Source: Zanthoxylum bungeanum (taxonomy: Eukaryota > Streptophyta > Magnoliopsida > Sapindales > Rutaceae). Taken from it: a stretch of 64,000 bases of DNA. Of this stretch, positions 4,872 to 60,694 are shown piece after piece (position 1 is the first letter of the stretch; every line of letters begins with the position of its first letter). The DNA is taken from contig SKCR01023801.1 in the NCBI GenBank assembly GCA_019454045.1, positions 124,001-188,000 of the forward strand, given 5' to 3'. The translations under genes were made by a program, and so were the position numbers. Below the pieces are notes generated by a model. The model saw only the letters and a list, made by a program, of their open reading frames with translations. It was not told the origin of the DNA and ran no database searches.

Positions 4872-4872
4872 T

Positions 4873-35324: not shown

Positions 35325-35783
35325 CTATAAGTTCCCAACTGAGTTGGAGTACATAAACTCCATCTCTAGGTTCATGGCTTTAAGCCATTCCTCTTTATCA
35401 GAATCATATATTGCACCACGATAGGTCAATGGATCATCTACACCATCGCTGGATGCGACAACTTGTGCCTCTCTAACTCCTAGATAGCGATCAGGTTGTC
35501 GTACAACCCTCCCCCCACGTCTAGGTGGTAGACCATTATGATGAACATGCATTTGACGCTCAGATGTCGAATGTGATATGTGTTTGTCAACTATCATTGA
35601 CGATGGTGTGTTGGTCGAACCAACAAGTAACTCCTCGAGTAACACTTTACTTCGAGGTTTGAACTCCCTCATATAGTCCTCCTCTAGAAACGTAGTATTT
35701 ATCGATAAAAATACTTTCTTATCTTCAGGGCTATAGAAGAATCCACCCCTAGTCTCCTTAGGATAGCCTAAAAATAGGCACAC
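35325..35783 (-). pseudogene. Copia-5 integrase C-terminus and linker remnant
   Basis: A 152-codon open stretch. It starts CLFLGYPKETRGGFFYSPED, typical of the region after the copia integrase core, followed by a basic RRGGRVVRQPDRY linker and the beginning of the RT domain (EEWLKAMNLEMEFMYSN). It runs directly into the Copia-6 insertion on its right; its upstream half is at 46211-46372. Confidence 0.85.
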
Positions 35784-35790
35784 TTGAGAA

Positions 35791-35795
35791 CATGG
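35791..35795. repeat. Target site duplication of Copia-6, left copy (CATGG)
   Basis: CATGG immediately before the left LTR, repeated at 46206-46210 after the right LTR. Confidence 0.93.
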
Positions 35796-37769
35796 TGTTG
35801 GATTCTATAATATGTCCCAAGGAAAGATTAAGCATTCATGAAATACAACAAAGAATATATATAAAAGACGAAGTATGGCGGAATCATACTTACAATGCTT
35901 TGTTGATGAAGAAAAACAAACCAAATGGAAGCTCCAAGGTGGATGACTTTCGGCCAAGGAAGACAAGAAGAAGGAAGCTCCAAGCTTTGTGTATTCCTTG
36001 CTCTATGATGGTTTCCCTATCACCTCTTTTGATCCCTTGAAGGTGCTAGCCTTGTATGTTCCAAACAATGACCTTTTCTTCAAGCTTTTGGCAACCAAAA
36101 TGAAGAAGATGAAGACCAAAAACTGCATGCAGTTTTCGGCCAAGTGAGAGAGAGAAGAGAGTTTTTCTTATTTTTGTTCTCATTGATTTTTGATACCAAA
36201 AATCAATTTATATTTATGCCATAATATTTATTAAATAATAATAAATCTATGACACAAGCCATGCAAAGGCTTAGAGTGTCAAACACTCTAATTCCATGCA
36301 TAACATTTGAGTGAATTACACACTATCACCATGCAATGCATCATCAATATAATAATACATATAATGACATGTGTCATGTGGGCCCCACACGTTTCCAAAT
36401 GAAAGTGGGCCCACGTGCACTCACGCGTTCGGGTTCGATATTTCCGAAATACCGAACTTGCGTTGCGACGTTAATTAAATCGAATTTAAATAAATAATCG
36501 CTCCTAGCGAAATTATTATTTACGTCGCTTACGAATTAATTCTAAATTAACTCGTATGCCCGAATTAAAATCTAATTTTAATTTCGCGTCGAAATCGAAT
36601 TTCAATTATTATATCGAATATAATAATTTTACCGATTAATTCCAAATTAATCGTTCTCTCTCTCTAAATAAGGCACTTTATCCGAGATAAAGTTTCTCCG
36701 CAATTAATCCAAGATTAATTAAGTTCGAATCAAATATCATAGGTGAATCTTCAGGAAGCGACCCAAGAGATCTCCGGATATGTTGGCAGTGAATACGGTC
36801 GTCGGATAATCCGAACACGCACGTACCTCGTACTACGTTCTTACCGATTCACAAGACAAGGTTGGCTTCTAGCAAAGCGCCATGCCTACCCAATTCTCCA
36901 GAAATATTCTTATAGGAATATAAGATCTATATCAAGCGTAGTATACCGTAGTATTGCGTACATCGATCCAGTATCGGATGATCACATGCTAGGCCTGGGG
37001 CTGGAGATGTGTCTGCCCCGTACGAAACATATATCGGACATCAAGCAACTAGTCTCTTTAAATCGGACAATCCTGACGTGGTCATATTGTCCCGACGGTT
37101 GCAACCTTTTATAGAGTACTAGTTCTGTGTCCTGCGTGATCATCACCTCCATATGTCTGAAGCGATACTTCCATCTTGACATCACATCCAGTACACTACG
37201 ATTCTCGATAAACCCAGAAGAGGTGTACACAGAACCGGTTAAGGTCCCCAACCACCAAAACCAAAGTTTACCGATTGTCGCAAGTACTAGCGATGTAAGT
37301 CTCAGGTTAAGACCATATACACCTACCCTGATGCGGCCTCCCATAGACACGCAGACATACTACCAATGGGATTCCGCGGGGTCTATCCAGAGCGAAGCTG
37401 TTTTCCGTACCATCGGTAAAACACAACCTCCTATCGCACTTGCATAAGTATCCAATACTAAATATATGAGAACTATGCCGTTGTGCCCTCACAACGTGCA
37501 CAAGCGCAATACTAGTCTATTCCGCATTATCGATGTCCAGTCTCGATAATACTACGACTAGGGATATTTAATGATTAAACCTTTGGGACTGATACTGTCT
37601 CATATCATTCTCAGTCCAGGTACTAATCATATGGACTTTCGCCATTTATAAGTCAAAGTAAATAATATTACAAAACGGCAAAAGGCAATTTCATTATCAC
37701 ATAGTTAATTTTGTACAATAATACAATATCATTTACAAACAGTGACGCTATGGGACATAATGTCTAACA
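35796..37769 (-). mobile_element. Copia-6 3' LTR
   Basis: TGTTGGATTC to ATGTCTAACA, 1974 bp, next to the polypurine tract. The ORFs at 36743-37114 (plus) and 36982-37350 (minus) recur in the other LTR. Confidence 0.93.
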
Positions 37770-37783: not shown

Positions 37784-38548
37784 CTATAGCCAGTCACTCA
37801 AGCATCTAATACCCGAACTATGTATGTGTCGTTCAAAAACTTGCTGTAGAACAGCTTTCGTCAGCGGATCTGCAATGTTGTCATCTGATGTGACCTTCTC
37901 GACTTTTACATCGCCACGATGTATAATCTCCCGAATCAGATGATAACGTCGAAGAACATGCTTGGACCGTTGATGAGACCTTGGTTCCTTAGCCTGTGCT
38001 ATAGCCCCGTTATTGTCACAATACAATGGAACGGGCTCAGCTGCTAACGGAACTACTCCTAATCCGATTAGGAACTTTCGGATCCAAACTGCCTCCTTTG
38101 CTGCTTCAGATGCAGCGATGTACTCCGCTTCTGTTGTTGAATCGGCAACAGTATCTTGCTTGGAAGATTTCCAGCTCACTGCTCCGTTATTCAAGCAAAA
38201 AATGTACCCGGATTGCGACTTGTAGTCATCCTTGTCGGTTTGGAAACTTGCATCGGTATACCCAGATACCGCAAGTTCTCCACCTCCATAAATTAAGAAA
38301 GCATCCTTAGTTCGTTTAAGATACTTAAGGATATTCTTAACTGCTATCCAGTGACCTTCACCTGGATCGGCCTGATAGCGACTGCACATGCTCAAAGCAT
38401 ATGAGACATCAGGTCGTGTACATATCATGGCATACATGATCGATCCGACTGCCGAGGCGAACGGTATCCGACTCATGTGGTCTCTCTCTTCCTGAGTCTT
38501 AGGACACATGTCCTTAGACAGAGAGGTACCACGTACCATTGGAACCAT
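37784..38548 (-). pseudogene. Copia-6 pol segment: RT end and RNase H
   Basis: A 254-codon open stretch ending at the natural pol stop. It starts in the RT/RNase H connection (FASAVGSIMYAMICTRPDVS) and carries the RNase H residues: GYTDASFQTD, ADSTTEAEYIA, LYCDNNGA and KHVLRRYHLIREII, then ADPLTKA near the end. All key residues are present, so this domain is intact; only the upstream frameshift at about 38540 separates it from the RT. The real polyprotein enters from the preceding segment, so the first Met is not a true start. Confidence 0.88.
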
Positions 38549-38838
38549 CCCCTCTTGGATTGTTCCATGTTGAATCTCTTCAACACTTTATCAATGTATG
38601 TACTCTGGGAGAGTCCAAGCAGCTTTCTAGATCTATCCCTGTAGATCTTTATTCCAAGAATAAAGGCTGCTTCTCCCAGATCTTTCATGGAGAATTTTAA
38701 TGAAAGCCAAGCTTTCACCGACGTTAGCATGGGAATGTCATTGCCTATAAGCAATACGTCGTCGACATAAAGGACAATAAAAGTAAGTGCTCTCCCACTA
38801 ACCTTCTTGTATACACAAGGGTCATCTGCGTTTTGCAC
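38473..38838 (-). pseudogene. Copia-6 pol segment: RT catalytic box
   Basis: Contains FIVLYVDDVLLIGND, with the YVDD catalytic box at 38758-38769, followed by the thumb region (LKFSMKDLGEAAFILGIKI) and LGLSQSTYIDKVLKRFNM. The last 30 or so codons run into the wrong frame, because a small indel near 38540 moves the true frame to the RNase H segment. Confidence 0.88.
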
Positions 38839-38842
38839 GAAA

Positions 38843-39796
38843 TCATATTTTTATGATCTCATCAAAACGCTGATTCCATGACCGTGATGCTTGCTTCAAT
38901 CCATAAATGGATCGATTTAACTTACAAACCTTGTTTGCAAGTCTAGGTACGATAAAACCGTCAGGCTGTTGCATATAAACATCCTCCAAAAGGTTTCCGT
39001 TAAGGAAAGCGGTTTTAACGTCCATCTGCCATATCTCGAAGTCGAAATATGCAGCTATTGCAAGCATTATCCGAATGGATTTAATCATGGCAACGGGTGA
39101 GAAGGTTTCGTCATAATCAATACCATATTGTTGACGATACCCCTTCGCTACAAGCCTAGCCTTGTACGTTTGTACGTTGCCATCCATGTCGGTCTTCTTC
39201 TTGAAGATCCATCTGCATCCAATAGGCTTTACGCCTTCTGGTGCATCAACCAGTGTCCAAACTTGGTTGGCGTACATGGAATCCATCTCGGACTTCATGG
39301 CTTCTTGCCATAAAGCGGAATCGATATTTTGTATCGCTTCCTCATACGTAGCCGGCTCATTATCCTCAATAAGATTAATATCTATATGAGGTGAGATCAG
39401 GAACCCATACCTCTCAGGTACTGTTCTGACTCTCTCCGACCTACGCGGTCCTTGTGTATGTGAAGTTTGTGGTACAGACTCATCCCGGACGGTCTGTTCT
39501 TGTTCCGTCGTTGATTCATTGCCAGGAACAGTATCACTACGATCTTCATCGAGTTCTACTTTCCTCCCACTTACCACTGCATTTAGGAATTCCTTCTCAA
39601 GGAAAACCGCATGTAGAGCAACAAATACTTTGTTCTCTTGTGGGTGATAGAAGTAATATCCTTTGGTTTCCCTAGGATATCCAACGAAAAGGCATTTATC
39701 AGATTTGGGTTCAAGTTTGGTACCTTCCAAACGTTTAACATATGCCCAGCATCCCCAAATCTTTAGGAAAGAGAACCTGGTTTCCTTCCTGTCCAT
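38843..39796 (-). pseudogene. Copia-6 pol segment: integrase C-terminus and RT fingers/palm
   Basis: A 317-codon open stretch. The first part (FLKIWGCWAYVKRLEGTKLE, KCLFVGYPRETKGYYFYHP) is the copia integrase tail. A variable acidic/basic linker follows (about residues 75-130). The RVT_2-type reverse transcriptase starts at WQEAMKSEMDSMYANQVWTL and continues through IGCRWIFKKK, KARLVAKGYRQ, MDVKTAFLNGNL and IYGLKQASRSWN. The frame is lost just after FDEII, where the YVDD segment takes over. Confidence 0.9.
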
Positions 39797-40158
39797 ATCT
39801 CATATGGAGTCTGTTCAACAGACTTCGACGGTACCTTATTCAAAATAAGTATAGCACTGTTTAATGCGTATCCCCAGAAGGATATTGGTAGCTCAGTGCG
39901 ACTCATCATTGACCTTACCATGTCCAACAAGGTGCGGTTTCTCCGTTCGGACACACCGTTTAATTGCGGTGTTCCAGGAGGAGTCCACTGTGAAAGAATA
40001 CCATATTCTTTCAAGTAATCTTGAAACTCATAACTTAAGTATTCGCCACCACGGTCTGACCGTAATGTCTTAATACTCTTCCCTGTTTGTTTCTCCACTT
40101 CGTGTCGAAACTCTTTGAATTTCTCAAAAGTTTCCGACTTGTGTCTCATAAGATACAC
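39763..40158 (-). pseudogene. Copia-6 pol segment: integrase core
   Basis: Integrase catalytic core, second half: HKSETFEKFKEFRHEVEKQT, the second Asp in TLRSDRGGEY, and the Glu in VSERRNRTLLDMVRSMM, then FWGYALNSAILILNKVPSKS and TPYEIWTGRKP. The first catalytic Asp (HTDVCGP) lies in the preceding segment. A small indel after RKPG shifts the frame to the next segment, which overlaps it. Confidence 0.9.
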
Positions 40159-40190
40159 ATAACCGTAACGAGATGCATCATCTGTAAAGG

Positions 40191-40667
40191 TTACGAAGTA
40201 GTGTGAAATCCACCTCTAGCCTGGCTAGACATGGGCCCGCATACGTCAGTATGAACGAGAGCTAACAGTTCTGTGGCACGTTCACCTTTACCGCTAAAAG
40301 GTGATTTAGGCATTTTGCCTAAAAGACAAGATTCGCAGACGTCATATGAATTGGGATCAAATTCGTCCAAGTACCCACTCTTTGAAAGTGTGGATATGCG
40401 AGTCTTGTTGATGTGTCCTAGACGACAATGCCACATATAAGCTTCATCTTTTAGATTACTCCTTTTGAGCCTTTTGTTTGTCATTTTAGGAGATTCATTT
40501 ATATTCAAAATATAAAGACCGTTATTTGCAACAGCTGTGCAAATTTCTGCATCATTTTTATATAAATAACACCCAGTGTTCCTGAATACAAAAGTGTAAC
40601 CCTGCTGGGTTAACAAGGATACAGATATAATATTCCTAGTTAAACTAGGCACAAAATAACAGTTCAA
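40191..40667 (-). pseudogene. Copia-6 pol segment: protease end, gag-pre-integrase, integrase start
   Basis: Starts after the protease (FVPSLTRNIISVSLLTQQGY) and holds the zinc-binding gag-pre-integrase module WHCRLGHINKTRI...CESCLLGKM. It ends with the beginning of the integrase core, LVHTDVCGPM with the first catalytic Asp. At about 40203, after RGGFH, a two-base gain (or a one-base loss) shifts the frame; the following TFTDDASRYGYV sequence is present in the next frame, so the break is recent and slight. Confidence 0.88.
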
Positions 40668-41737
40668 AAGTTTAAGTTCATGCCCTGAGGGCAGAGTACT
40701 AAAACAAAAGTCCCTACGGCCAAAACAGCAACTGGTGTTCCGTTTCCGACCCGTAGATCCATCTCCCCTGATGCCAGCACCCTGCTATCATGCAGATCCT
40801 GCACATCAGTACAAATATGAGCACCACAACCAGAATCAAAAATCCAATTTTTAAAACTAGAAGTATTCATATTTATCTCAATAACAAACATACCAGAGGC
40901 AATGGCCTTGCCAGCCTTGATATCCTCCCTCTGCACAATGCTCATTCGGCAGTCACGTTTCCAGTGACCCCTCTTGCCGCAGTTGAGGCAGATGTCGCGA
41001 GATTTGTCCTTTGGCTTCCTAGAAGCCACTGTCAACTTGCCTTTACCCTTCTTCTTGAACTTCTTCTTCCTTGCACCTCCAATTGCCTTGGGGCCACCCT
41101 TTGGCGCATGAGAGGTCAATGCAAAATGCGCCTCGCGCTTGCTCCCCTTTAGGAGTTCCCTTTCGGATTCCTTTAAGATAGATAACAGCTCTCCAAGAGT
41201 GTCATCTGTATCCATCAACTTGTAGTTGACTATGATTTGTTTCCAAGTATCAGGAAGTGACTGCAAGATCATATCTATAGTCAGCTCAGCCTCCAAGACT
41301 ATTCCCATATTGGCCAACTCATCAATATCGGCGATCATTTGAGCCCCGTGGGCTTCAACTGATGCGCCGTCTGTCATCCGGGAGCGGAAGAGTTTCCTTA
41401 CTAGCTCGTACCTCTTCATCCGCTTATTGGTGCGGTGAAGATCACGCAATCTTGCCATCATGTTATAGGGATCCAAGTCCCTATTCTGGCGTCTGAAATG
41501 CTGGGTCATTGCAGCTAGCATAACTGACTGAGCTTGGTCACAATCATCACTATGAGTTTTCCATAACTCTAGCTCCAGTGGCTCAGTGGGTTTAGGCGGG
41601 AGAGGTCTCTGAATAGTATACAGTATCCTCTCAGCCCCAAGCACTATCTTGAGGTTCATTTCCCAGTCGGCAAAGTTTGTCCCTTTGAAGACATTATCGC
41701 CCATGATTATGTCGCGGATATTACCTTTGCCAATCAT
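40664..41737 (-). CDS. Copia-6 gag with the start of the protease
   Basis: A 357-codon ORF beginning at the first Met after the leader. It encodes the structural polyprotein that packages the element RNA. Residues from about 18 to 200 match the copia gag core (TNFADWEMNLKIVLGAERI, ELWKTHSDD, MIADIDELANMGI, LQSLPDTWKQIIVNY). A lysine-rich stretch (KKKFKKKGKGK) precedes the nucleocapsid zinc knuckle CLNCGKRGHWKRDC (CX2CX4HX4C, 40949-40990). The aspartic protease motif WIFDSGCGAHI follows. The ORF then terminates by a frameshift near 40680 inside the protease. Gag itself looks intact, so trans-packaging by or of other copies is conceivable. Confidence 0.92.
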   Translation of the reverse strand: MIGKGNIRDIIMGDNVFKGTNFADWEMNLKIVLGAERILYTIQRPLPPKPTEPLELELWKTHSDDCDQAQSVMLAAMTQHFRRQNRDLDPYNMMARLRDLHRTNKRMKRYELVRKLFRSRMTDGASVEAHGAQMIADIDELANMGIVLEAELTIDMILQSLPDTWKQIIVNYKLMDTDDTLGELLSILKESERELLKGSKREAHFALTSHAPKGGPKAIGGARKKKFKKKGKGKLTVASRKPKDKSRDICLNCGKRGHWKRDCRMSIVQREDIKAGKAIASGMFVIEINMNTSSFKNWIFDSGCGAHICTDVQDLHDSRVLASGEMDLRVGNGTPVAVLAVGTFVLVLCPQGMNLNF

Positions 41738-44210
41738 CTTGACAACTATAGTCCAACTATAAAGTCAACGATGTTATGGGTACAGTCAAACTGTTACATA
41801 TAAAAATAACAATATATTAGTCCAACTAATTATTTAAAATATTGACGAAATAATTTTGAAAGACGCGTAAGGCTAATATCTGAATGAAATTGCAAATTCA
41901 ATAATAGCCTCCCACTATTTTCTTCAAGTTTCTAACCCTCTGTAGACAACTCGGGAAATCTAATTTCCTAGTGGGCTAGGATCCCGTTAAATAACACACA
42001 ACCTTGACTTTGGCCAACAAGTTGTATGATATTTAACTAGGTAGATCTCGAAGATCAATTGGATCCCATCCAATTCCTAGATCCGGTAGGTGGACATCCA
42101 AGTCCGAAACATATATCTAATAATATGTCAATGTATCCAATACATTTTCCTAACCATTCCTCTGAATCAACTAAGCCTTGGCTTTGGCAAAACAAACCTA
42201 ATGATTCCAGTTAAGCGGGACCCATTGACAAGGAAAATTTCGTAATCAATGTCGATGGACAAGAAGTGATCTTGACTTTGGCCAACAAATCACAACTTGG
42301 ACAGGACACCGATGTGGAACAAAACTCTCATGATTCAAAAACACATCCTGATTGACAAAGGTCTTGACTTTGGCCAACAAACCAATGCCAATTTCGGATC
42401 TTGAGAAAGAATCATTCAACGGAAGGAAAATCGCTTAATATTGTTTGAGGGATTTTTCGCGTAATTGGCAACCAATTAATTTATCTTTGTTAGGTCTCAT
42501 CATCATACACCCTTAAGCATGCTTCTAAAACATCATAAAGCGCGCGTAAAGTAAATTAATAGTGATATGCGGATGGATATAAAACAACTTGTTCCTAGAA
42601 CAAATCACTCCCTTTCCTCTCCCCGTTAGCACTATTCTACTTCTACCCAATTACATAATACAATAAGAGAAACCTCATTTACATTGAGGGGAATTAGGTG
42701 AGAAGAGAATACAAAGAGATAAAGAGATAAGGCTGGACACGCAGGTCCAATTTATAAATTCCAAATTTACAATAATTTCTAAAATTACCCTTTCCCTTCT
42801 AATATCCATCCGATATACACTATTCATTCATCACATACATATATATTCAAACAAGACATGCTTTTACAACCAATCTAATCCAATTAATTAGTCTTTGTTA
42901 AAGTGATCATCCAATGTTCAAACAACGGTTTGATTTTGCGCGAGTCCAACTCGATTGAGAATAAGTACATAAGGTACGAATTCGCGAATTATATCGAACT
43001 ACTAATTAAATCTAATTTAATTCGTATTCAATACTAATTCAATTATTTAATTCCAAATTAAATGTTTACACTTTTAATGTGCTTTAAAGACTTAGATTCT
43101 AAATCCAATCTATTGGGTCTCAAAGCCCAACTAACATCCAATGTTTAATTTAATTCAAGTCAAATGGGCTTTCAATTGATTTATTAAGGCTTGGGCTTTG
43201 GTCAATGTGGGTCATACCCAATTACCAAGCCCAAATAAGGAATCACCCTTAAGTGCCATAAAACCAATTTCAAGCCCATAAGGCCCAATTAAATTATTAA
43301 AGCCCATTAATTATATTTGGACTTAATGGAGTGATTTAGGCCCAAATTGGATCCAATCCATTTGGCCCAAATCTACTTGGTCCAACCAAGCCCATTATGC
43401 CCAAATACAATATTAAAAGCCCAATTCACCAATTAAGCCCATTAATTAAATTTTAATATTCCAAACATTAAAGTCCAATTAATTAAAGTGTAATACCAAG
43501 ATTAATATATTAAACCAAATATTTCAAAAAACCCATTTAATTTATTAATCATGTATTGTTCAAAATAAATGTCCAACATTAATTTTAACAAAAAATCAAC
43601 TCCTTTACATGTCTTATGTATTCGGCCAAGGTGAGTTTTTGTGTCGATTTGCTTTTCAATCCGATTGAATTACTAATCTACGTTCCGTACACGTTCTAAG
43701 TCATCCAATGATCTTAACACAAAAAATTCCAATCCACTCCAAGTAGCAACACATTCGGCCAAGGCATGAGTTTAGGGGAAAAATCATCCAATGCATTTTT
43801 CATAAAATTGATTCATATAACATCATGTTATATACATGCAAGCATACTTATTAATCAAATTTCACAAGAACATGCTTATATCAATTCTTCATGCCATTCG
43901 GCCAAGGTGAAGATTTTGGGGAAAAATCATCCAATGCATTTTTCATAAAATTGATTCCATGTAATATCATTCTATATACATGCAAGCATACTTATTCATC
44001 AAATTTCACAAGAACATGCTTTTATCAATTTACCACACCCATTCGGCCAAGGTCAAAATTTTGGGGAAAAATCATCCAATGCATTTTTCATAAAATTGAT
44101 TCCATGTAATATCATTCTATATACATGCAAGCATACTCATTCATCAAATTTCACAAGAACATGCTTCAACCAATTTTGTCAAATTTTAACCTAAAGTATT
44201 TCATGCTTAA
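41738..44210 (-). other. Copia-6 untranslated leader
   Basis: A 2.5-kb non-coding leader between primer site and gag. It carries three CTTGACTTTGGCCAACAA motifs (near 42003, 42272, 42363), a block dense in GGCCCAAT/AGCCCA (43090-43490), and a three-copy tandem repeat near the primer site. ORFs in it are short and lie within repeats. Confidence 0.75.
43753..44182. repeat. Tandem repeat of about 144 bp, three copies
   Basis: Units start at ATTCGGCCAAGG at 43753, 43896 and 44041 (periods 143 and 145 bp). Each contains GGGGAAAAATCATCCAATGC and ACATGCAAGCATACTYATT-type sequence and ends near CAAGAACATGCTT. The related Copia-1 and Copia-4 leaders appear to have one copy, so the expansion is specific to Copia-6. 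Confidence 0.92.
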
Positions 44211-46210: not shown

Positions 46211-46725
46211 CTCCAATTTAGTAGTCTTATTCTTAAGCACATGTGCTGGACACCCCCATATGCGGAAATATCGTAAACTAGTTTTACGAAAACTCCACAA
46301 CTCTAAGGGAGTATTAGGAACAGACTTAGCTGGAACTACATTGAGGATATGCATTACAATGCATATCCCCAAAACAAACTATGTAGTGAGCTATAAATAA
46401 AAATAGATCTCATCATGTCTAGTAAGGTTCGATTTCTCCTTTCTGCAACACCATTTAATTGTGGTGTTCTAGGTGCTGTGAGCTGGGATACTATCCCATG
46501 CTCAACCAAGAATGATTCGAAATCTCTATCAAGGTATTCTCCTTCATGATCTGATCGTAGAGTTTTGATTGTTTTATCTAACTGGTTCTCAACCTCAGTA
46601 TGATAGTCTTTGAACTTTTCAAAAGTATATGACTTGTGCTGCATTAGGTAATCATACCGATATCCAGAATAATCGTCAATAAATTTGATGAAGTATTCAT
46701 AACCACATTGGGCTCTTACATTCAT
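46211..46725 (-). pseudogene. Copia-5 integrase core remnant
   Basis: Two overlapping frames carry the integrase of Copia-5. The first (46354-46725) has EYFIKFIDDYSGYRYDYLM, the second Asp in TLRSDHEGEY, and the Glu in VAERRNRTLLDMMRSI. The second frame (to 46211) continues with NVVPAKSVPNTPLELW and FRIWGCPAHVLKNKTTKLEP, then is cut by Copia-6. The frame change near 46360 and loss of the upstream part make it a pseudogene. Confidence 0.85.
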
Positions 46726-47390
46726 CGGTCTGTAAACTTTCGATTGTATAAGCTCAAGTGGTTGACTGGCTCTTATACCTCATTCTAAAAAAGATTCGCA
46801 GACTGGTAAAGTTCCGAGCTTTAACTGGTTTAAGGCTCCGTTCTTTATCAACTTATCTATCTGGTCAAGGCTGATATGAACAAGTCTAAGATGCCACAGA
46901 TATGTGTCATCGTGAGAAGTATTTTACCATTTTGTTTTAGGTTTCTCAACCTTAAATATTTCAGTGTTGAGCAGTGACTTATGTGTTAACGATCTTAACA
47001 CATACAAGTTATCTCATAGTTTCCTTAGAATATAGGTAATCCATTTTTGAAATAATAACTATTATTACTCGATAAAATGATAACCATCATGCAATAGTTT
47101 TGAAAAACGAAATCAAATTTCTATGAAAAAATAGGAACAAACACCACTTTATTTAAATTCAAATAACTTTTATTTGAAAAATTGTAAACTGATAACTCCC
47201 ACAGCTTTACTGAAACATCATCCCCTGTCATGGCTCTCATAGTAAAGTTACCTTTAGCAAAGGTCTTTACGTGTATCAAGTTGCTATACCCTTAGCCTTA
47301 CTAGTTTTTCTTTCTCTTCTTTGCAGTTTTGAAAGACTTCGCAACACTTGCCTCTTCACTAGGTTTACAAGGATCCATCAACATGGACTC
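46726..47390 (-). pseudogene. Copia-5 protease/gag-pre-integrase remnant
   Basis: Strongly decayed region between integrase and gag relics. Weak similarity to the gag-pre-integrase module is visible around 46860-46910, where the minus strand gives TYLWHLRLVHISLDQIDKL-like residues, and to the region preceding it at 46960-47000. No usable ORF remains. Confidence 0.55.
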
Positions 47391-51399: not shown

Positions 51400-51404
51400 G
51401 CAAT
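51400..51404. repeat. Target site duplication of the LOG element, left copy (GCAAT)
   Basis: GCAAT directly before the TG of the left LTR, repeated exactly at 60690-60694 after the CA of the right LTR. Confidence 0.93.
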
Positions 51405-53541
51405 TGACCGGCGTAAACACACACGTATAACGCAAGCGCACGTATCGTTCAAGTAGTATAAAAAATATCGATCCCACGAGGACTTAATTCCTACTGTTGT
51501 TATTAATTATTGAATCTATTTATTTACAAATATCTAATTAAAAGGGAGAATGGATTGATTGCTTGATTGATTGAAAGTGGTTTTACAAAATAAATAAATA
51601 AATAAAAAGACAAAAGAAAATACTAAGGAAAATAACAAAAGACACAAAGATCTAGGGTTGTGATTTCTATTAATATCATTTAAAAGATGAAGTGATTATT
51701 TTATGTTTGTGTAATAATCATTTACTAACCTGGAACACTAAATTATGTAAAAGCCTCTTCCGATGGTCAATTACAAATACCCAGTTTAACCCAATTGAAC
51801 CATATTCCTATGTCAACCACATTACCTGGATTCATTAAGTTCAAGTTCCAATTATGGCTACCCCCGCCCGACAGGTATATTCATATCCTGTAAGGAAATC
51901 TATTAAAGGGTTATCTATCCTCAAGGAAGATCGTGGGCTATTAAGTCTAAGGCTGAAACCTAAAATCCCTATGTCTAGTTCATTTTAGATTTACCATATC
52001 AATCTTATTGGTGATCAGACAACAAGAAGCATTAAGCTTAAGACTTAATAAATAAACCTTTAATTACCCAACTATAAAATAATCCCTTATAAACCGGTGA
52101 TATTAAAAGTCATCACAACCCCTAATTAATTAACACATAATTAGGACTAGTAAATACATAAAATTAAAAGACATAAAGTAAAAGCTGAAAAGTAAATTAC
52201 AATAAAATAAAATGCTAAGGTAAAAGGAATTACTTTTACTACTACTACTTTAGATATCTCCCATAAAATAATATATAAACTTGTGATAATATTACCAACC
52301 GACCATTCTGGCGGTATCCTGATTAAGTCAAATTAAGTCCAACCAGCCATTAAGGCGGAACCAAAAATAAATTTACCAACCGACCAGTCTGGCGGTATCC
52401 TTGATTAGTCAGGTTTAAACCAGATTAAAATTAATTACCAACCGACCAATATAGCGGTATTCCTTATTAAGTCAATATTTTAAATAGTGAATATATTATT
52501 TTTAAGGGAGATTAATCTAAATAGCAATAGTAGAAGAATTACCTTTCACCCTAGCTGAGAAATTATTTCAACATGGTGAATAGTAAAAACTGTAAAAAGT
52601 AAAAAGTAAAAATTAAATTACTATTATTACAAAAAGTAATTAAATTATTTACAAAACTAAAAATAAAATAAAAAATAAAATAAAAATTCTAGAGAGAGAA
52701 ACTCTCTCAAGAGAGAGAAATCAAGAGAGAGAAAGGTGTACAAAATTCTGAAATTCGCGCTCTATTTATAACAAATATTTTACTGTTCGGGCACTGTTCG
52801 CGCGTCGCGACGCCAAGGACCTGCGCGTCGCGACGCGCAATTTGTCGACGTGGCACAATGATACGGCGACACGTAGCAGGCGGCTGACTGTACATGCGAC
52901 ACGTGTCAAGGCGGCTAATTCTCAATTATTGTGATGACGTGGCGATGACGTGGCGATGACGTGGCGTAGGCGTGTGTTGCATTTGTCGGCACAATAGGAT
53001 TGCGACACGTGGCGACACGTGTCAAGGTTGATTGGCTGAGGTTGACGTGGCATGTTGACTCGGTTGACCTGCTGACGTGGACGATGATGTGGCATGACAC
53101 GTGGCAAGGTTGACTCGTTGACCGCTGACATGGCTGATGACGAGGCGACACATGTCAAGTCTGAGTGTCGGCAGCATATGATGATGACACGTGGCACGGC
53201 GCATGTTAGCAGATCGGCTGTGATGGTGACACGTGGCACGGCGCATTTTAGCAAAGTCAAAACTTATCAAATTGTTGACCGTTGACCAGGCGCATGTTAG
53301 CAAATCCGGCTCACGCTGGGCGTCGCGGCGCGCTGTGCTTCAGCGTCGCGACGCGCAGAAGACGAAAATAACCCTGTTGACGCATTTTTGTCCGGTTTTG
53401 CCCCAAATTGCCACCAGTGCTATCTAAACTTTATTTATCTGCAAAATAACAATAAAACACATCAAAACATTCACAAAACTCAAGAAACTATACAAAATAT
53501 TAAGTTAAATGAGTGGGAAATGTGATATAAATACCTCATCA
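51405..53541 (-). mobile_element. 3' LTR of the LOG element
   Basis: TGACCGGCG to CTCATCA on the plus strand. Differs from the right LTR by scattered substitutions and 1-2-bp indels (about 98% identical by eye), indicating a fairly recent insertion. Contains a minus-strand TATA box (52762-52770) and the G-box-rich block at about 52849-53240. Confidence 0.93.
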
Positions 53542-53554
53542 CACCCCCAAACCT
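53542..53554 (-). other. Polypurine tract of the LOG element
   Basis: The minus strand reads TTAGGTTTGGGGGTG up to the LTR boundary (TGATGAGG begins the LTR). Purine-rich with a G5 run, as expected for the plus-strand primer. Confidence 0.8.
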
Positions 53555-54335
53555 AACATTTTGCTAGTCCTCGAGCAAAATACAAAATAAAATAACATAA
53601 CAAAATTTAACTAAGCCACTTTCGTAGGGATCACAGTTGCATTTAGCATATGCAACAAGCCTTTAAACCCCTAGGTGTCCCTAGTGGACGAGTTGTAGTC
53701 TCGTGAGGGTTTACAACAATGATACCCACAAACATTTTACAAAAGTAAAAAGGTATTAAAACTAATGCACACAAAAGCAAAAAGACAAGCGAAAAGAGAA
53801 TAAAAAAAGTTAGTGACTAATCAGGTGAAAATTCTTCTCCAAGTTACTAGTTGTTTTGTTTCTTTCTAAATTACCGAATAAGTAAATTCTCCGATTATTT
53901 TTACCATTCTCCATATATACAGCCAACAGAATATTAATTAACTCATTTTTGCCCACAACAGTCATAAGTGCAGTTGATAAGAGAGTAATATTTTTGTCCT
54001 AAAGTTCTATCAGATTTCACACCTTTGTGTAGCAATGGAATAATTTTCTGGTTTTTCTTTTTTTTTTCTTTGATTTTTTCTCTATTTTTATTTTTATACA
54101 ATACCTTCCGTCTATATAGCGAGCTTTGGGTTGGTGGCTCCCAAACCAGTTGGCTTTAGGGCACCAGGTGTTAAGACACCCCTACGAACTTAATTACTCA
54201 GACTTCAGATATATATATTTTTGCAGCATCTTTGATCCATGTAGCGAGCTTTGGGCCAATGACTCCCAAACCAGTTGGTTTTAGGGCACTAGGTATTAAA
54301 ACACCCTTACAGACTTAATAACTCGGATCTCGGAC

Positions 54336-54376
<41 letters not shown>

Positions 54377-54886
54377 CTATCACTATTTAGAGATGCTTCC
54401 TCCAATTAAACTATAGCACGGAATATTACAATCTTTTCAATTTTTAGCTCATGTCCGTATGTTTCCATGTAAGTTCATAATACCTGTCAACTGAACATAA
54501 GAAGATTCATTTTAGTCAGTTTTAAGGAGAATTCACAAATTAAATAATTCAAAAGGAAATAAACAAAAATTAACTTATTTCAAAATAGGTTTGAGATACG
54601 TCTCAGGAGTGGAAATTCCTTACTCGGCTATCTTTTACCAATTCCACCTTTTTAGTCAAAATAAAAACACAAAAACACAAAATATTTTTGTAATTTTTGA
54701 AAAATTTTCAATTTTTTTGTATTTTTCGAAAATTTTGGACTAAAAATAAAAACAACATACAAACTAAAAACAAGGTACTAATCAACTAAATCCCTCCCCC
54801 AAACCTAAATGAGACATTGTCCCCAATGTCTTAAACAGTAAAAGGAGAGTTAGAAGGTGTACCTGGTTAGCTGAAATCTACAGGAA
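53555..54886 (-). other. Non-coding 3' interior of the LOG element
   Basis: No gene is seen. It contains a 125-bp tandem duplication (54117-54338), a 36-base T run on the plus strand (about 54339-54374), and a CCCCCAAACCTAAATGAGAC-type block at 54797. Similar blocks occur in the non-coding 3' parts of plant Athila/Tat-like elements, to my recollection. The start of the repeated module discussed in the findings lies near 54590. Confidence 0.65.
54117..54338. repeat. Imperfect tandem duplication, period 125 bp
   Basis: Two units starting TAGCGAGCTTTGGG at 54117 and 54242, sharing CTCCCAAACCAGTTGG and the following AGGGCAC/ACACCC blocks. The second unit ends in a long T run. Confidence 0.85.
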
Positions 54887-55540
54887 TTAAAGGTTAAGAT
54901 CCAGATTAATTCGACGCCTCTTACCACGATCGTCCTCAGACCAATTTATCTTCGAAATGATAGGGTCAACTTGTGGTTCATAGGCTATGAGTTGATCTAT
55001 TAGATCCGGAGCAAGTCTGGCAGTGAAGAGGAGTTCTTTCATAGGTTTTGAAACGAACCCATTTCTCCGAGCATCATCAAGAAACACACAAAGAAAATCA
55101 TAAAATCCATCAACGTTGAGTAGTCCAAGCGGTTTCTGGTGTATGTTCAGGTTCGCCCAAGATAGAACTATAAAAATTTCCTCCAATGTACCCAAACCAC
55201 CTGGCAAAGCAATAAAAGCATCAGCACGGTTAATCATTTCTACCAAACGTTCAGACATACCTGATACGATCAGTTCCTCTCCGTTTGATGATCCAATAAG
55301 ATTTGCCTCTGCCAAGGGTTTTGGGATGATTCCCAAAACGTGACTGCCTCCTTCCTGTACGGCTTTTGAAACGATCCCCATAAGTCCGAGATTTCCTCCG
55401 CCATATATTAAGTGCATATTCCTTGCGGCTAATACTCGACCCAACTCCTGTGCTGCTTCTATGTATTGTGGTTTAGTACCAACAGTACTACCGCAAAACA
55501 CACAAATGTTTTCAACTCGTCTTTTTGAAGTGGCTTCCAT
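54887..55540 (-). CDS. LOG: LONELY GUY-type cytokinin riboside 5'-monophosphate phosphoribohydrolase
   Basis: A 217-residue, uninterrupted ORF of the plant LOG family. These cytosolic/nuclear enzymes release active cytokinin bases and ribose 5-phosphate from cytokinin nucleotides. Visible family motifs: ICVFCGS (12-18), YGGGNLGLMG (46-55), SER with Arg98 (96-98), and the signature PGGLGTLEE (113-121) with catalytic-type Glu121. Length is normal for the family (about 210-240). The Lys that usually follows the Arg is Leu99. The C-terminus is GKRRRINLDLNL: a basic patch plus an LxLxL sequence. Host LOG genes normally contain several introns; this copy has none. It lies in the sense direction of a retrotransposon, between gag remnant and 3' LTR. 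Activity cannot be judged from sequence alone. Confidence 0.93.
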   Translation of the reverse strand: MEATSKRRVENICVFCGSTVGTKPQYIEAAQELGRVLAARNMHLIYGGGNLGLMGIVSKAVQEGGSHVLGIIPKPLAEANLIGSSNGEELIVSGMSERLVEMINRADAFIALPGGLGTLEEIFIVLSWANLNIHQKPLGLLNVDGFYDFLCVFLDDARRNGFVSKPMKELLFTARLAPDLIDQLIAYEPQVDPIISKINWSEDDRGKRRRINLDLNL

Positions 55541-56819
55541 TTTTCTATGTATTTCTTTTTCAAATTAGGATGCCTTCAAGAGTGCAATGACGGGCTAAAT
55601 TTATAGTACCTGAAAAGGGTGAGTAATATAATAGCACTAATATCTTACAAAGGACGATTGTTAGCTAAACAACAAAATGAATCGTGAAAGGTCAAAAAGT
55701 CTGGATCCTGTCTACGAAAATAAAGATAATTACAATAGAAAAGCGAATCAAAGAAATAATTAAGGCAACGGAATTGTGTACGCAATACGCCACTCGCTCA
55801 GTATAAATTCATTAGGATGTGTCTCAAGATTTCATTCCTTACTCAGCCATCACAAATGAATTAGCTCTCTTCTTTTTGATTGTCAAACACAATTCCTTCT
55901 GTATTAAAATGCTCCGTTTGTGCTTTTCTCTACAAAAATAACACACAAAATTAAAAAGTTCACACTATGTATACACAAAAGAGTTTAGAAGATAATACAT
56001 AGTCAGCTGAAATTTTACAGGAAAAATTACCGATAGGAAAAATTTATGTCCAATTTTTTTTTTTTTTACCACGATCGATAATTGACTATTTTTTTAGTGA
56101 AAATTCGACAGAGTCTCCTCTAAAAATTTAAAATCTCCCCAAATTCATCCTAAAACAATTCACAATCCTCCAATTTCAACAAAATCAACCACAAACTCAT
56201 TCAATTTTCGATTATCCCCCTTTTACTCCAAAATTTCAAACCTGTAACATTCAATTTCAAAATTAACCACACAAATTATCCACAAAAATCAGATCTGATT
56301 ATGGAAGGTTTTGATCGTGGGTTTGGTGACTGTCTTGGTGATTCACGGTGTGGGTATCTCGGCTTTGGTCGGTTTTGGCAGTGGCGTGGCTGGTGGATCT
56401 CGGTGTGTTGCTTGTCTCTCGGTTTGATGTTCACGGCAGATCTGGCTCGGTTTTGACTCGGCGAAGGAAGGGCTCGGTTACGGGTTACTGGTTTGGTGAG
56501 TGGTTGCGGTTTGGGCGAGGTGACTCTTGGTGATAGGCTCGGCCATGGTGGGTTTCTGGTTTCTGGTAGATCTCGGTTGTGGCGGTGTGGTTTTGGTTCA
56601 CGACTCGGCTGGTGATGACTTGCTCACGGCAAGGATGGCTCTCGGTGGGTTGGCTTGCGGTGGTTGTTGATGCGGCTGGTGGATCTCGGTTTTGGTTTGT
56701 GGTTGAAGTGGCTGTGATGGATCGTGTGTGGTGGTTGAAGATGAAGAAGATGAAGAGTGAAAGGAGATACTGCCAGCACCCTGTTTTGTGTCTCTGATTT
56801 TGAGTCAGCGTCGCGACGC

Positions 56820-56850
<31 letters not shown>

Positions 56851-57048
56851 GGCAAAACCATGTCTTTGAGAGATAAATCCATAAGACTTCTTACTCGGCC
56901 GTCTTTTCTGGATCAACTTTGTATCTTCGTGATTTTGTCAAATTTTTATTTTGTAAAAATCCCGCTTGTACTGGCTTGTTTTGTCCTGATAAATTCCATT
57001 TTAAATTTTTCCTGCAAAACTCACACACAAAATAAAAAGTTCACACAA

Positions 57049-57080
<32 letters not shown>

Positions 57081-57379
57081 CAACAAATTGCATGGGTTGC
57101 CTCCCTGCTAGCGCTAAATTTTTCGTCTTCAGCCAGACGTGACTGAAATTTATCTGTTAAGGAGGTTTCAGTGTCGTTTTGGATGTCCTATCAAAGACAA
57201 TCCCGTGAGCGTTGCTTTTGAAGGGTCTCTTCCAACGGTAAAGTGGTAAAAAGAATTTTGTCTTATTCAATGATCGTGCCACCTTTTTAATCTTTGTCGC
57301 TCCAATAGTTCCTGCAAAGAAAGAAATAAAATTAGGAGGTCTCGTATGGTGCTTGACTTGGAATGGAAGTTCCATTCTT
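55541..57379 (-). other. Non-coding middle interior of the LOG element
   Basis: No supported gene. Two copies of a repeated module (about 55740-56060 and 56840-57080) surround a GC-richer block (56290-56800), in which CTCGG/CTCGGTT recurs on the plus strand; its ORFs are low-complexity. Position 56810-56817 holds a single GTCGCGAC palindrome. Near 57083-57115 the minus strand has TAGCGCTAGCAGGGAGGCAA followed by CCCATGC, a block I associate with the end of the coding region in Athila/Tat-type gypsy elements. Confidence 0.6.
55598..55605 (-). promoter_or_regulatory. Possible TATA box of the LOG gene
   Basis: The minus strand reads TATAAATT about 58 bp upstream of the LOG start codon, leaving room for a start site and a roughly 30-nt leader. 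It could be a private promoter captured with the gene or a chance AT-rich match. Confidence 0.4.
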
Positions 57380-58408
57380 TCAAGCTTCTGGGTGATATCT
57401 TTGATTTGTACTCCCCAAAAAGCGATGTTTTTCCTGAATGCTCTGGATCTTTATTAGTTCTGATAGTTGCTCCTCCATTTGCTCTTCTTTTTGCTCCACC
57501 TTTTCTTCATAGATGTATTTGAAAATTTCTGCATTCAGCTCTTCATCTGTCATCTGTGAAATACATGTTTCAAAATTGTCAACCTGAGGATGAAAAGAAA
57601 TGTCAGATTTTAGGTCTTCATCCTCTGATCTGGGTGAAATGATTGGCTCAGGTAAATCTTCATCAAACATTTGTGCAAAGCATTCTCCAAGATCTTCATT
57701 TAGAGGATACAAAATTCCATCCTCAATTTTTGATGCAATTGGTACAAATATTTCAGCTTCATCCTCGTCAGAATCTGAATAATAGAAATCAAATCGAGAC
57801 TTTGCCGGTTCGGGTTCCTGAACTGATACCTCTGGTTGTTGATACTGCTCAGCCTCCTCCTCTGTTGAAATGTCATTGTGAAATGATTGGTACTTGAAGG
57901 CTTCATCAGTGTCATCTGAGAATGGTTCTTGAGGTATATAGTTCTGATTTTCTGTGAATTGTCTGATCTGATCTGTCATTCTCTGTATGGATTCTGTTTG
58001 ACTCTGAATTTGTGCATCAAATTGAGCTGTCTGTTCCTTGAACATGTGAATCAATTGATCTTCCTCGGATGGTTCTGGTTGTTGATAAGGATCGAAGGAA
58101 GATGGTGGATAAGATGGAAAATGTGATTCTGTGAAATGTGATGGTTCTTCGTACCATGAAGGATCTTGATAGTTCTGCCACCCTGGATGGTAGTTGTATT
58201 CGCAATAATCGCTTGTGTGGTCACCATTACATATGTCACATCTCCACATTGAGTTCTGATGAGCAAATGTAGTATTGTTTGGTTCTGGCATCCAGTGATA
58301 ATCATTGGGCTGTTCAACAGGCCACAGAAAACCGGACTGTTGCTCCCAGATTTGGGGTGTATCTTCTTGTAAAGCACGTAGTCTCTCAATCTCCCAGTAG
58401 TGTTCCAT
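57380..58408 (-). CDS. Truncated gag-like protein of the LOG element
   Basis: The open frame extends to 58477, but the first 23 codons are AT-rich and hydrophobic. I prefer the Met at 58408 (MEHYWEIERL), giving 342 residues. In the longer numbering, residues 80-92 form a zinc knuckle CDICNGDHTSDYC (CX2CX3HX4C), followed by YHPGWQNYQDPSW, close to the YNPGWRNHPNFSW-type motif after the knuckle in Athila/Tat gags (from memory). The capsid part normally preceding the knuckle is missing. The remainder is Gln/Glu/Ser-rich and strongly acidic with a possible coiled coil near the C-terminus (EEKVEQKEEQMEEQLSEL). A TTTGATTTCAG just upstream resembles a 3' splice site. It may help RNA packaging, or be a relic. 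Confidence 0.65.
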   Translation of the reverse strand: MEHYWEIERLRALQEDTPQIWEQQSGFLWPVEQPNDYHWMPEPNNTTFAHQNSMWRCDICNGDHTSDYCEYNYHPGWQNYQDPSWYEEPSHFTESHFPSYPPSSFDPYQQPEPSEEDQLIHMFKEQTAQFDAQIQSQTESIQRMTDQIRQFTENQNYIPQEPFSDDTDEAFKYQSFHNDISTEEEAEQYQQPEVSVQEPEPAKSRFDFYYSDSDEDEAEIFVPIASKIEDGILYPLNEDLGECFAQMFDEDLPEPIISPRSEDEDLKSDISFHPQVDNFETCISQMTDEELNAEIFKYIYEEKVEQKEEQMEEQLSELIKIQSIQEKHRFLGSTNQRYHPEA

Positions 58409-58520
58409 TTTTAAGTCACCTGAAATCAAAAGAAAGAAATAAAAATTACAGATAAAAATAAAAAAAATTAGATACAAGTAAATTAGATAGCTTCAAAATT
58501 AATAACTCAAGAAATATAAG

Positions 58521-58538
58521 TCCCCGGCAACGGCGCCA
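58521..58538 (-). other. Primer binding site complementary to tRNA-Asp
   Basis: The minus strand reads TGGCGCCGTTGCCGGGGA, complementary to the 3' end of plant tRNA-Asp (GTC) including CCA. It lies 6 bp inside the right LTR, making that the 5' LTR. This primer is used by Athila-type and related Ty3/gypsy elements. Confidence 0.9.
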
Positions 58539-59905
58539 AAAACTTGACCGGCGTAAACACACACGTATAACGCAAGCGCACGTATCGTTCAAGTAGTATA
58601 AAAATATCGATCCCACGAGGACTTAATTCCTACTGTTGTTATTAATTATTGAATCTATTTAATTACAAATATCTAATTAAAAGGGAGAATGGAATTGATT
58701 GCTTGATTGATTGAAAGTGGTTTTACAAAATAAATAAATAAATAAAAAGACAAAAGAAAATACTAAGGAAAATAACAAAAGACACAAAGATCTAGGGTGT
58801 GATTTCTATTAATATCATTTAAAGATGAAGTGATTATTTTATGTTTGTGTAATAAATCAGTTTACTAACCTGGAACACTAAATTATGTAAAAGCCTCTTC
58901 CGATGGTCAATTACAAATACCCAGTATAACCCAATTGAACCATATTCCTATGTCAACCACATTACCTGGATTCATTAAGTTCAAGTTCCAATTATGGCTA
59001 CCCCCGCCCGACAGGTATATTCCTATCCTGTAAGGAAATCTATTAAAGGGTTATATATCCTCAAGGAAGATCGTGGGCTATTAAGTCTAAGGCTGAAACC
59101 TAAAATCCCTATATCTAGTTCATTTTAGATTTACCATATCAATCTTATTGGTGATCAGACAACAAGAAGCATTAAGCTTAAGACTTAATAAATAAACCTT
59201 TAAATTACCCAACTATAAAATAATCCATTATGAACCGGTGATATTAAAAGTCATCACAACCCCTAATTAATTAACACATAATTAGGACTAGTAAATACAT
59301 AAAATTAAAAGACATAAAGTAAAAGCTGAAAATTAAATTACAATAAAATAAAATGCTAAGGTAAAAGGAATTACTTTTACTACTACTACTTTAGATATCT
59401 CCCATAAAATAATATATAAACTTGTGATAATATTACCAACCGACCATTCTGGCGGTATCCTGATTAAGTCAAATTAAGTCCAACCAGCCATTAAGGCGGA
59501 ACCAAAAATAAATTTACCAACCGACCAGTCTGGCGGTATCCTTGATTAGTCAGGTTTAAACCAGATTAAGAATGAATTACCAACCGACCAATATAGCGGT
59601 ATTCCTTATTAAGTCAATATTTTAAATAGTGAATATATTATTTTTAAGGGAGATTAATCTAAATAGCAATAGTAGAAGAATTACCTTTCACCCTAGCTGA
59701 GGAAATTATTTCAACATGGTGAATAGTAAAAACTGTAAAAAGTAAAAAGTAAAAATTAAATTACTATTATTACAAAAAGTAATTAAATTATTTACAAAAC
59801 TAAAAATAAATAAAAAATAAAAATAAAAATTCTAGAGAGAGAAACTCTCTCAAGAGAGAGAAATCAAGAGAGAGAAAGGTGTACAAAATTCTGAAATTTC
59901 GCGCT

Positions 59906-59914
59906 CTATTTATA
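59906..59914 (-). promoter_or_regulatory. TATA box of the LOG element promoter
   Basis: The minus strand reads TATAAATAG, a strong match to the plant TATA consensus, conserved in the other LTR (52762-52770). It lies about 0.77 kb into the LTR, a normal U3 length. Confidence 0.8.
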
Positions 59915-59948
59915 ACAAAATATTTTACTGTTCGGGCACTGTTCGCGC

Positions 59949-59979
59949 GTCGCGACGCCAAGGACCTGCGCGTCGCGAC
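59949..59979. repeat. Paired GTCGCGAC palindromes, 23 bp apart (5' LTR)
   Basis: GTCGCGAC at 59949-59956 and 59972-59979. The same pair is at 52804-52811 and 52827-52834 in the 3' LTR. A second pair, GTCGCGGC/GTCGCGAC, also 23 bp apart, is at 60469/60492 and 53322/53345. Confidence 0.9.
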
Positions 59980-59991
59980 GCGCAATTTGTC

Positions 59992-60400
59992 GACGTAGCA
60001 CAATGATACGGCGACACGTAGCAAGGCGGCTGACTGTACATGCGACACGTGTCAAGGCGGCTAATTCTCAATTATTGTGATGACGTGGCGATGACGTGGC
60101 GATGACGTGGCGTAGGCGTGTGTTGCATTTGTCGGCACAATAGGATTGCGACACGTGGCGACACGTGTCAAGTTGTGATTGGCTGAGGTTGACGTGGCAT
60201 GTTGACTCGGTTGACCTGCTGACGTGGACGATGATGTGGCATGACACGTGGCAAGGTTGACTCGTTGACCGCTGACATGGCTGATGACGAGGCGACACGT
60301 GTCAAGTCTGAGTGTCGGCAGCATATGATGATGACACGTGGCACGGCGCATGTTAGCAGATCGGCTGTGATGGTGACACGTGGCACGGCGCATTTTAGCA
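59992..60400 (-). promoter_or_regulatory. ACGT-core / G-box array upstream of the LTR TATA box
   Basis: About fourteen ACGT cores within 400 bp, roughly half of them full CACGTG G-boxes in GACACGTGGC or GACACGTGTC context, plus several TGACGTGG. Such sites bind plant bZIP (including ABA-responsive) and bHLH factors. The left LTR has the same array with a few mutated sites (for example GACACATGTC near 53150). Confidence 0.75.
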
Positions 60401-60689
60401 AAGTCAAAACTTATCAAATTGTTGACCGTTGACCAGGCGCATGTTAGCAAATCCGGCTCACGCTGGGCGTCGCGGCGCGCTGTGCTTCAGAGTCGCGACG
60501 CGCAGAAGACGAAAATAACCCTGTTGACGCATTTTTGTCCGGTTTTGCCCCAAATTGCCTCCAGTGCTATCCAAACTTTATTTATCTGCAAAATAACAAT
60601 AAAACCATCAAAACATTCACAAAACTCAAGAAACTATACAAAATATAAGTTAAATGAGTGGGAAATTGTGATATAAATACCACTCATCA

Positions 60690-60694
60690 GCAAT
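60690..60694. repeat. Target site duplication of the LOG element, right copy (GCAAT)
   Basis: Identical to 51400-51404. Confidence 0.93.

Follow-up and report, generated by a model that had tools for sequence, protein, structure and literature searches.

A LOG-type gene amplified with LTR retrotransposons in Zanthoxylum bungeanum, and the conserved tail of its predicted product

The window analysed here is a 64-kb stretch of the Zanthoxylum bungeanum genome (assembly GCA_019454045.1, contig SKCR01023801.1; all coordinates are window positions). It contains a complete long terminal repeat (LTR) retrotransposon at 51405-60689, on the minus strand, and within this an intact, intronless gene of the LONELY GUY (LOG) family, to which thousands of motif matches are found across the assembly. 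The primer-binding site (PBS) TGGCGCCGTTGCCGGGGAC, presumably of the tRNA-Asp type, is on the minus strand and adjoins the right-hand LTR, which makes the element read from right to left; the LOG open reading frame (ORF) is on the same strand as the PBS, that is, in sense within the element, and it matches the Pfam families PF03641 (E 1.2e-34) and PF18306. The PBS, the polypurine tract and a perfect GCAAT target-site duplication (TSD) were all found by sequence (Table 1). The two LTRs are 98.4% identical over 2152 columns, with a Kimura two-parameter (K2P) distance of 0.0109, which at a rate of 1.3e-8 per site per year gives an age of about 0.4 million years (My). All of this agrees with the original prediction, which was made from the letters of the window alone; its further claims, that a host-type, cytokinin-activating gene had been captured by this element, are taken up below.

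The original prediction also held that all of the surrounding transposon genes are broken or missing. This is so for pol, for which no frame was found in the window element (none was seen, as opposed to a decayed one), and is not so for ORF1, which is open. ORF1 matches no Pfam family at E 0.1; its database relatives are seven ena/lgn contigs, each some 1-2 kb long, at 59-77% identity, and across 96 aa it is weakly similar (28%, E 1.6e-7) to the C-terminal part of the gag of the large copies described below. LTR elements that are non-autonomous, lack pol and have at most a gag-like ORF are known as TR-GAG or LARD-like elements; the window element, with its only weakly gag-like ORF1, carries LOG as an extra gene. 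No further copy of the element was found within the window (blastn, E 1e-5).

Table 1. Features of the LOG-bearing element, in order of window position
Feature	Position	Strand	Found by
Target-site duplication GCAAT, left copy	51400-51404		sequence
3' LTR, 2137 bp, TG...CA ends	51405-53541	minus	
Polypurine tract AGGTTTGGGGGTG (minus-strand letters), adjoins 3' LTR	53542-53554	minus	sequence
3' non-coding region, moves with LOG as a cassette	53555-54886	minus	
LOG-type ORF, 217 aa, single exon, PF03641	54887-55540	minus	
Tail codons KRRRINLDLNL (basic and alternating Leu, NLS/EAR-like)	54890-54922	minus	
Block ACTCACCCTTTTCAG/GTA upstream of LOG ATG, candidate 3' splice acceptor, invariant in aligned copies	55605-55626	minus	
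Second conserved block GACAG/GATCCAG, candidate alternative acceptor	55701-55713	minus	
ORF1, 341 codons from ATG, zinc-knuckle-like CX2CX3HX4C	57380-58405	minus	
Pyrimidine tract and TTTCAG/GT, 11 nt before ORF1 ATG, candidate acceptor	58416-58445	minus	
Primer-binding site TGGCGCCGTTGCCGGGGAC, adjoins right-hand (5') LTR	58520-58538	minus	
5' LTR, 2145 bp	58545-60689	minus	
Target-site duplication GCAAT, right copy	60690-60694		sequence

The element belongs to a greatly amplified family. In the host assembly (3.956 Gb in 51,709 contigs) a 35-mer from the LOG active site (the core motif) has 5,815 exact matches, the LOG tail motif of one subfamily 4,558, a motif from ORF1 3,454, and a 35-mer from ORF195, an ORF of the large copies, 973; the reversed controls gave no match in any case. 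A DNA search with LOG produced 5,883 candidates, the best 40 of which are all full length at 97-100% identity, and the best 150 of the 66,459 candidates found with the poplar LOGL10 protein all span at least residues 8-215 of 217. Some of the contigs are near-duplicates (L114 and L115 are 99.86% identical, and L116 and L117 99.95%, over 9.95 kb), so that the true numbers of loci are lower than these counts. The ends of the element were examined at 12 loci. Perfect and mutually different TSDs were seen at nine of them, representing eight distinct insertions besides the one in the window (L113, L114 with its duplicate L115, L119, L120, L123, L126, L128 and L131); L130 was off by register, and the script made no call at L121 and L125. 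LTR ages for eight copies besides the window's are 0.19-1.63 My at the same rate. The dispersed LTR-LOG-LTR copies with differing TSDs that the original prediction proposed to look for do therefore exist, and a one-off capture is ruled out by the motif matches, the full-length copies and the independent TSDs. We regard the anatomy and the amplification of the LOG-bearing element as almost certain.

Among the ORF1 sites in the listed part of the genome, 14 of 66 have the core motif 1.46-3.0 kb downstream, the controls giving one on the opposite strand and none upstream. Eight of the 52 sites without an exact core motif were fetched: LOG lies downstream in five, and in three no LOG is seen within 5.5 kb. 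LOG is usual but not universal in ORF1-bearing copies.

In nine of 20 fetched loci (eight of them distinct) ORF1 was not seen by blastn, and these are large copies. The frames of four (L121, L124, L127 and L132) were scanned for protein families. A gag domain (PF03732) was found in L121, reverse transcriptase (PF00078) with one RNase H (PF17917) in L132 and L127, and integrase (PF17921 and PF00665) in L132, L127 and L124; L121 seems, by eye, to be without most of pol. The order reverse transcriptase, RNase H, integrase, which is that of Ty3/gypsy elements, is present in L127, in a single 784-aa frame, and in L132. We take the 5-bp TSD, the TG...CA ends and the PBS type to be those of the Athila lineage, and the reverse transcriptase motifs presumably also resemble Athila. 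No match to PF03078 (Athila ORF-1) was found in the frames scanned. No additional RNase H (aRH) was listed in the L127 frame (E 0.01) or the L132 frames (E 0.1), these being the two copies scanned for it, and since aRH is given as the mark that separates Tat from Athila within the OTA superclade (PMC6317226), this would place the large copies on the Athila rather than the Tat side. They share with Athila, as described there, the single RNase H and the presence of additional ORFs beyond pol, ahead of the 3' LTR, and differ in what those ORFs are, namely LOG and a gene resembling viral nucleic-acid-binding proteins (NABPs).

This latter gene, ORF195, encodes 182 aa from its Met and lies between integrase and LOG, at about 4800-5390 in element coordinates (L121, L124, L129 and other large copies). 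In all nine large loci ORF195 and then LOG follow downstream (tblastn), with frameshifts in some, and at 10 of the 18 ORF195 sites in the listed part of the genome an exact LOG motif follows on the same strand after 0.88-1.18 kb. In each of the three copies where it was scanned (L121, L124 and L129), ORF195 scores above the Pfam thresholds for PF05515 (Viral_NABP) and PF01623 (Carla_C4); in L124 the scores are 28.8 bits against a cut-off of 23, and 27.6 against 20.9. It has no PDB match at E 1, and its pN/pS is 0.62, from five copies only, including L127 with an aberrant N-terminal stretch and excluding L116 for its length. The families matched are those of the cysteine-rich NABPs of carlaviruses and mandariviruses (PMC12172455 treats these); in contrast to these, ORF195 is encoded by a retrotransposon, was not found in the pol-less copy of the window, and is a putative NABP.

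Comparison of the nine large loci with the window element gives LTRs that are 84.9-89.3% identical where they can be aligned (65-77% covered) and nothing alignable across ORF1, whereas LOG is 97.4-98.2% and the 3' non-coding region 94.5-96.5% identical. Over all 20 fetched LOG copies the identity of the 3' region is 94.5-98.2%, one copy spanning just 39% of it. LOG and the 3' region are thus nearly identical on differing LTR and 5' backgrounds, so that the pol-less and large families share them as a cassette, a pattern that points to exchange of this cassette between the two families. A capture by the window element itself does not fit with this. Within the 3' region of the window element, at 54084-54373 and beside a run of 37 T, there are also two head-to-tail units of 125 bp that are 76% alike.

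The window LOG is 43-50% identical to the canonical plant LOGs with which it was compared. In a tree of 97 rows (56 element-type, 31 canonical plant and 10 bacterial), the bootstrap for which had not fully settled, each of these three groups falls on one side of a branch, with support of 100/97, 100/98 and 100/100 respectively. Six of the 56 element-type rows come from the host genome, and the remaining database hits are assumed to lie in elements. The element-type clade includes proteins with the same C-terminal tail from poplar, Malvaceae and Paulownia; the species named among the 120 best element-type hits are Reevesia (11), Xanthoceras (6), Populus (5), Paulownia (3) and Diplodiscus (2). 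Three of the Xanthoceras frames (P0008, P0014 and P0031) hold two LOG units or part-units each, and are perhaps fused neighbouring copies or errors of the gene models. The bacterial rows derive from a search of genome contigs that left 80 loci, all with bacterial titles, 11 of which were used to count motifs; the eleventh was omitted from the tree because of a stop within the matched stretch. With the window LOG alone as query no plant LOG loci were found among viral contigs. A LOG profile found 24 loci in IMG/VR (L001-L024) with 25-49% identity in the best segment, and these are too distant to be members of the window's family.

This separate clade gives no support to the gene of host type in the original prediction. 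No donor of the element LOG was found, and the element-type clade falls outside the canonical plant LOG rows sampled. When a full canonical LOG was used as query against the host assembly, the best 150 places were element LOGs at 47-49% identity; an 84-aa canonical piece placed one host gene at the top of 150. This gene (L153) is split by introns into at least four blocks, which are 61-70% identical to Arabidopsis LOG3, and it ends in SLDLKTQTPL, with no basic or LxLxL tail. The comparison rests on the single host LOG found, no search having been aimed at further ones. L154 is a second contig of the same gene and nearly identical to L153; haplotype or duplicate contigs are apparently present in the assembly.

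It might be argued that the element-type clade is instead an ordinary clade of host genes, the LOGL10 of annotation, which has been captured several times and of which the tail is a host feature. The poplar database proteins are indeed annotated as LOGL10 host genes, and location in elements was established here only for copies in the genome of the window. However, Reevesia pubescens and Xanthoceras sorbifolium contribute 11 and 6 of the 120 best hits, which implies many copies per genome, the one host LOG examined is without the tail, and the YgdH domain is reported in LTR-element consensus sequences of poplar and Citrus (PMC9289625). We consider this explanation unlikely.

The same report bears on the statement, in the original prediction, that no LTR element family carrying LOG was known. 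It describes the YgdH (LOG) domain in the consensus sequences of LTR elements from two Citrus species and, when the filter of that study is not applied, from P. trichocarpa, and finds this in line with Steinbauerova et al. 2011, which it cites; the presence of a LOG domain inside plant LTR elements is already known. As far as those Gypsy elements are described there, the present case shares with them the LOG-family domain and differs in the 4-Gb genome, the thousands of motif matches, the NABP-like neighbour and the pol-less derivative. The Gypsy elements of orchids that encode an AlkB-like m6A demethylase (PMC9289625) are alike in that an enzyme of host type has become a fixed additional ORF of an amplified Ty3/gypsy family; the enzyme is a different one, and the backbone is Tat/Ogre-like in place of the Athila-type one seen here. 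In searches of open-licence PMC papers, judged by the titles and starts of abstracts listed, we found no report of a LOG with an EAR tail, of this gene order, of an NABP-like ORF in an LTR element, or of selection on such a LOG.

LOG frames were read at 40 loci, 30 of them being intact (206-217 aa) and 10 broken, as called by script. Pairwise dN/dS was calculated for 31 open frames, giving 465 pairs, of which 462 were binned, two were undefined and one lay beyond the bins. The median is 0.12-0.19 in the bins above dS 0.05. Between subfamily representatives dN/dS is 0.11-0.24 at dS 0.22-1.53, the window against the other subfamilies giving 0.11-0.17 (over the same range of dS) and the other pairs 0.19-0.24, and eleven open frames ranked by DNA similarity, the window included, have a pooled pN/pS of 0.125. 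A neutral simulation gave a median of about 0.9, with 1% of frames still open at 173 changes; at 12 changes 67% are still open and the first percentile is 0.22, so that close single pairs prove little and the deep pairs carry the argument for selection. Judged from these substitution patterns, LOG is under purifying selection within the element. A chance ORF is ruled out by the PF03641 match, the dN/dS values and the simulation.

These comparisons also make it very improbable that LOG is a passenger, a host retrocopy trapped once and recently amplified with no selection. LOG is intronless, as a retrocopy would be, and among the 18 distinct loci that hold a full element, which were picked for their DNA similarity, it is open in 10 and broken in eight. 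Such a passenger is hard to reconcile with the low dN/dS between subfamilies at appreciable dS, with the lack of an internal stop in 143 of the 150 best-scored copies from the LOGL10 search (a ranking, best first, that is biased to conserved copies), and with the single clade in which the same tail recurs in proteins of poplar, Malvaceae and Paulownia.

AlphaFold2 predicts a LOG fold for the window protein with a pLDDT of 86.2, residues 203-217 being below 50. The top PDB match of the predicted fold is the Arabidopsis LONELY GUY protein At2g37210 (2a33; E 3.6e-21, target TM 0.95), with which it shares R98 and PGGxGTLEE, the local form of the PGGxGTxxE motif; R98, the conserved Arg, is invariant in the 22 rows of one alignment (A1). 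It differs in being intronless, in its limited identity, in its extra basic and LxLxL tail, and in the residues beside R98. All 120 canonical plant hits have the motif MHxRKAxM, against 10 of 120 element-type hits, and the bacterial LOGs have M[HR]xRKxxM in 11 of 11; at the MHxRKxxM site the window LOG reads MSERLVEM. Of the 104 element-type hits that could be read there, 27 retain H96 and 10 retain K99 (120/120 each in the canonical hits); in a less redundant set of 37 element-type rows the numbers are 14 and 4.

The element LOG may nevertheless be an active enzyme that releases free cytokinin from N6-isopentenyladenine riboside 5'-monophosphate (iPRMP), in which case the element would gain through division or delayed senescence of the cells that transmit it and the tail would be secondary. 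The fold, the PGGxGTLEE motif, the invariant R98 and the purifying selection across the ORF are all consistent with activity; the loss of MHxRKAxM from most element-type hits, set against its presence in every canonical one and that of M[HR]xRKxxM in every bacterial one, speaks against it, and we see an active enzyme as a possibility of the minor sort. Loss of the His and Lys while the tail leucines are held would suit a scaffold, that is, a pseudo-enzyme that binds a nucleotide but does not turn it over, and whose sole role is to display the tail. However, 36 of the 37 element-type rows retain R98, and 36 retain E121, which is unexpected for a dead enzyme, and the scaffold is doubtful. Because the His and Lys beside R98 are mostly lost, the enzyme activity of the element LOG, and with it the cytokinin activation that the original prediction took for granted, must be regarded as uncertain.

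LxLxL occurs in the last 22 residues of 88 of the 120 element-type hits (78 of the 94 that are 205-235 aa long), and is joined by a basic cluster in 86; neither LxLxL nor the combination is found in any of the 120 canonical hits. The window LOG ends in INLDLNL, and has the terminal LxLxL of the ERF-associated amphiphilic repression (EAR) motif. In the 37 element-type rows Leu213, Leu215 and Leu217 are each conserved at 86%, compared with 65%, 30% and 27% for residues 212, 214 and 216 and a mean of 72% for the core, which is the pattern to be expected under selection on an EAR motif. Such motifs (LxLxL or DLNxxP) are described as recruiting the TOPLESS and TOPLESS-related (TPL/TPR) corepressors (PMC12566939). 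The basic cluster and alternating leucines thus resemble a nuclear localization signal (NLS) followed by an EAR motif, a combination that is apparently new in a LOG.

Upstream of the LOG ATG there is a block, ACTCACCC(T)TTTTCAG/GTA, which all 19 distinct copies compared have unchanged apart from one optional T, with flanks that vary. AG sites were scored with standard acceptor frequencies, and the LOG acceptor ranks first of 557 in L124, first of 629 in L132 and third of 593 in L121. The ORF1 acceptor of the window ranks second, and that of ORF195, TTTTTGCAG/A, 16 nt before the ATG, ranks eleventh in L124 and tenth in L132. A TATA box as a promoter for LOG is disfavoured, since two copies (L116 and L126) have it disrupted, whereas the acceptor block does not vary. 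Spliced subgenomic RNAs have been reported for barley Bagy2 (PMC7264820), and by analogy we propose that the element ORFs may be expressed from such RNAs; an LTR may drive LOG, as the original prediction supposed.

Elsewhere in the window, Ty1/copia-type polyprotein fragments were recognised by eye at 37787-41764 on the minus strand, and there are more copia-like frames at 34034-35804 and 46357-46779.

The interpretation towards which we lean, if by a modest degree, is that LOG is a long-resident 3' accessory gene of an amplified Athila-type Ty3/gypsy lineage, expressed from the LTR through spliced RNAs and acting on the host through its NLS-EAR tail. LOG lies beyond pol and ahead of the 3' LTR, a place taken in other plant elements by env-like ORFs, and is carried both by the large gag-pol copies and by pol-less copies such as the window's, which may be mobilised in trans by proteins from the large ones. 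The LOG clade would represent one old acquisition, followed by purifying selection inside the element. Transcripts from the 5' LTR may be spliced at the conserved acceptors ahead of each ORF, to give a LOG fold with a disordered C-terminus, the basic cluster of which may direct it to the nucleus and the leucines of which may recruit TOPLESS-type corepressors; the altered host transcription or cytokinin status would then favour the element. The nuclear EAR part of this scheme is tentative. It is conceivable, though we would not press it, that LOG, in origin an enzyme of a hormone pathway, now acts in the nucleus as an adaptor for corepressors and perhaps ties the repression of host genes to nucleotide or cytokinin status, with retrovirus-like splicing beside a carlavirus-like NABP.

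Several observations weigh against this interpretation. Neither the LTR nor the leader yielded a strong splice donor, and the LOG acceptor of the window copy lies outside the best 12 of its 487 AG sites. The tail is not uniform: one LOG subfamily has the variant LDIDLNR (L139, L140 and L142), and three Xanthoceras rows (P0063, P0090 and P0098) end in a shorter SKKRRLA. To these must be added the ORF1 loci with no LOG seen within 5.5 kb, the broken frames among the full-element loci, the best-first ranking of the LOGL10 copies, and the low retention of H96 and K99.

The role of the extra ORFs of plant LTR elements has been described as an open question (PMC7264820). An extra ORF with a known enzyme fold, thousands of motif matches in one genome, strong purifying selection and a short tail makes that question directly testable. 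If LOG is a corepressor adaptor, the element would carry two viral-style genes for manipulating the host, and should the tail prove to bind TOPLESS, this would demonstrate that a mobile element encodes its own dedicated regulator of transcription in the host. The LOGL10 genes of the databases may also include genes of elements, and this would distort counts of the size of the LOG family.

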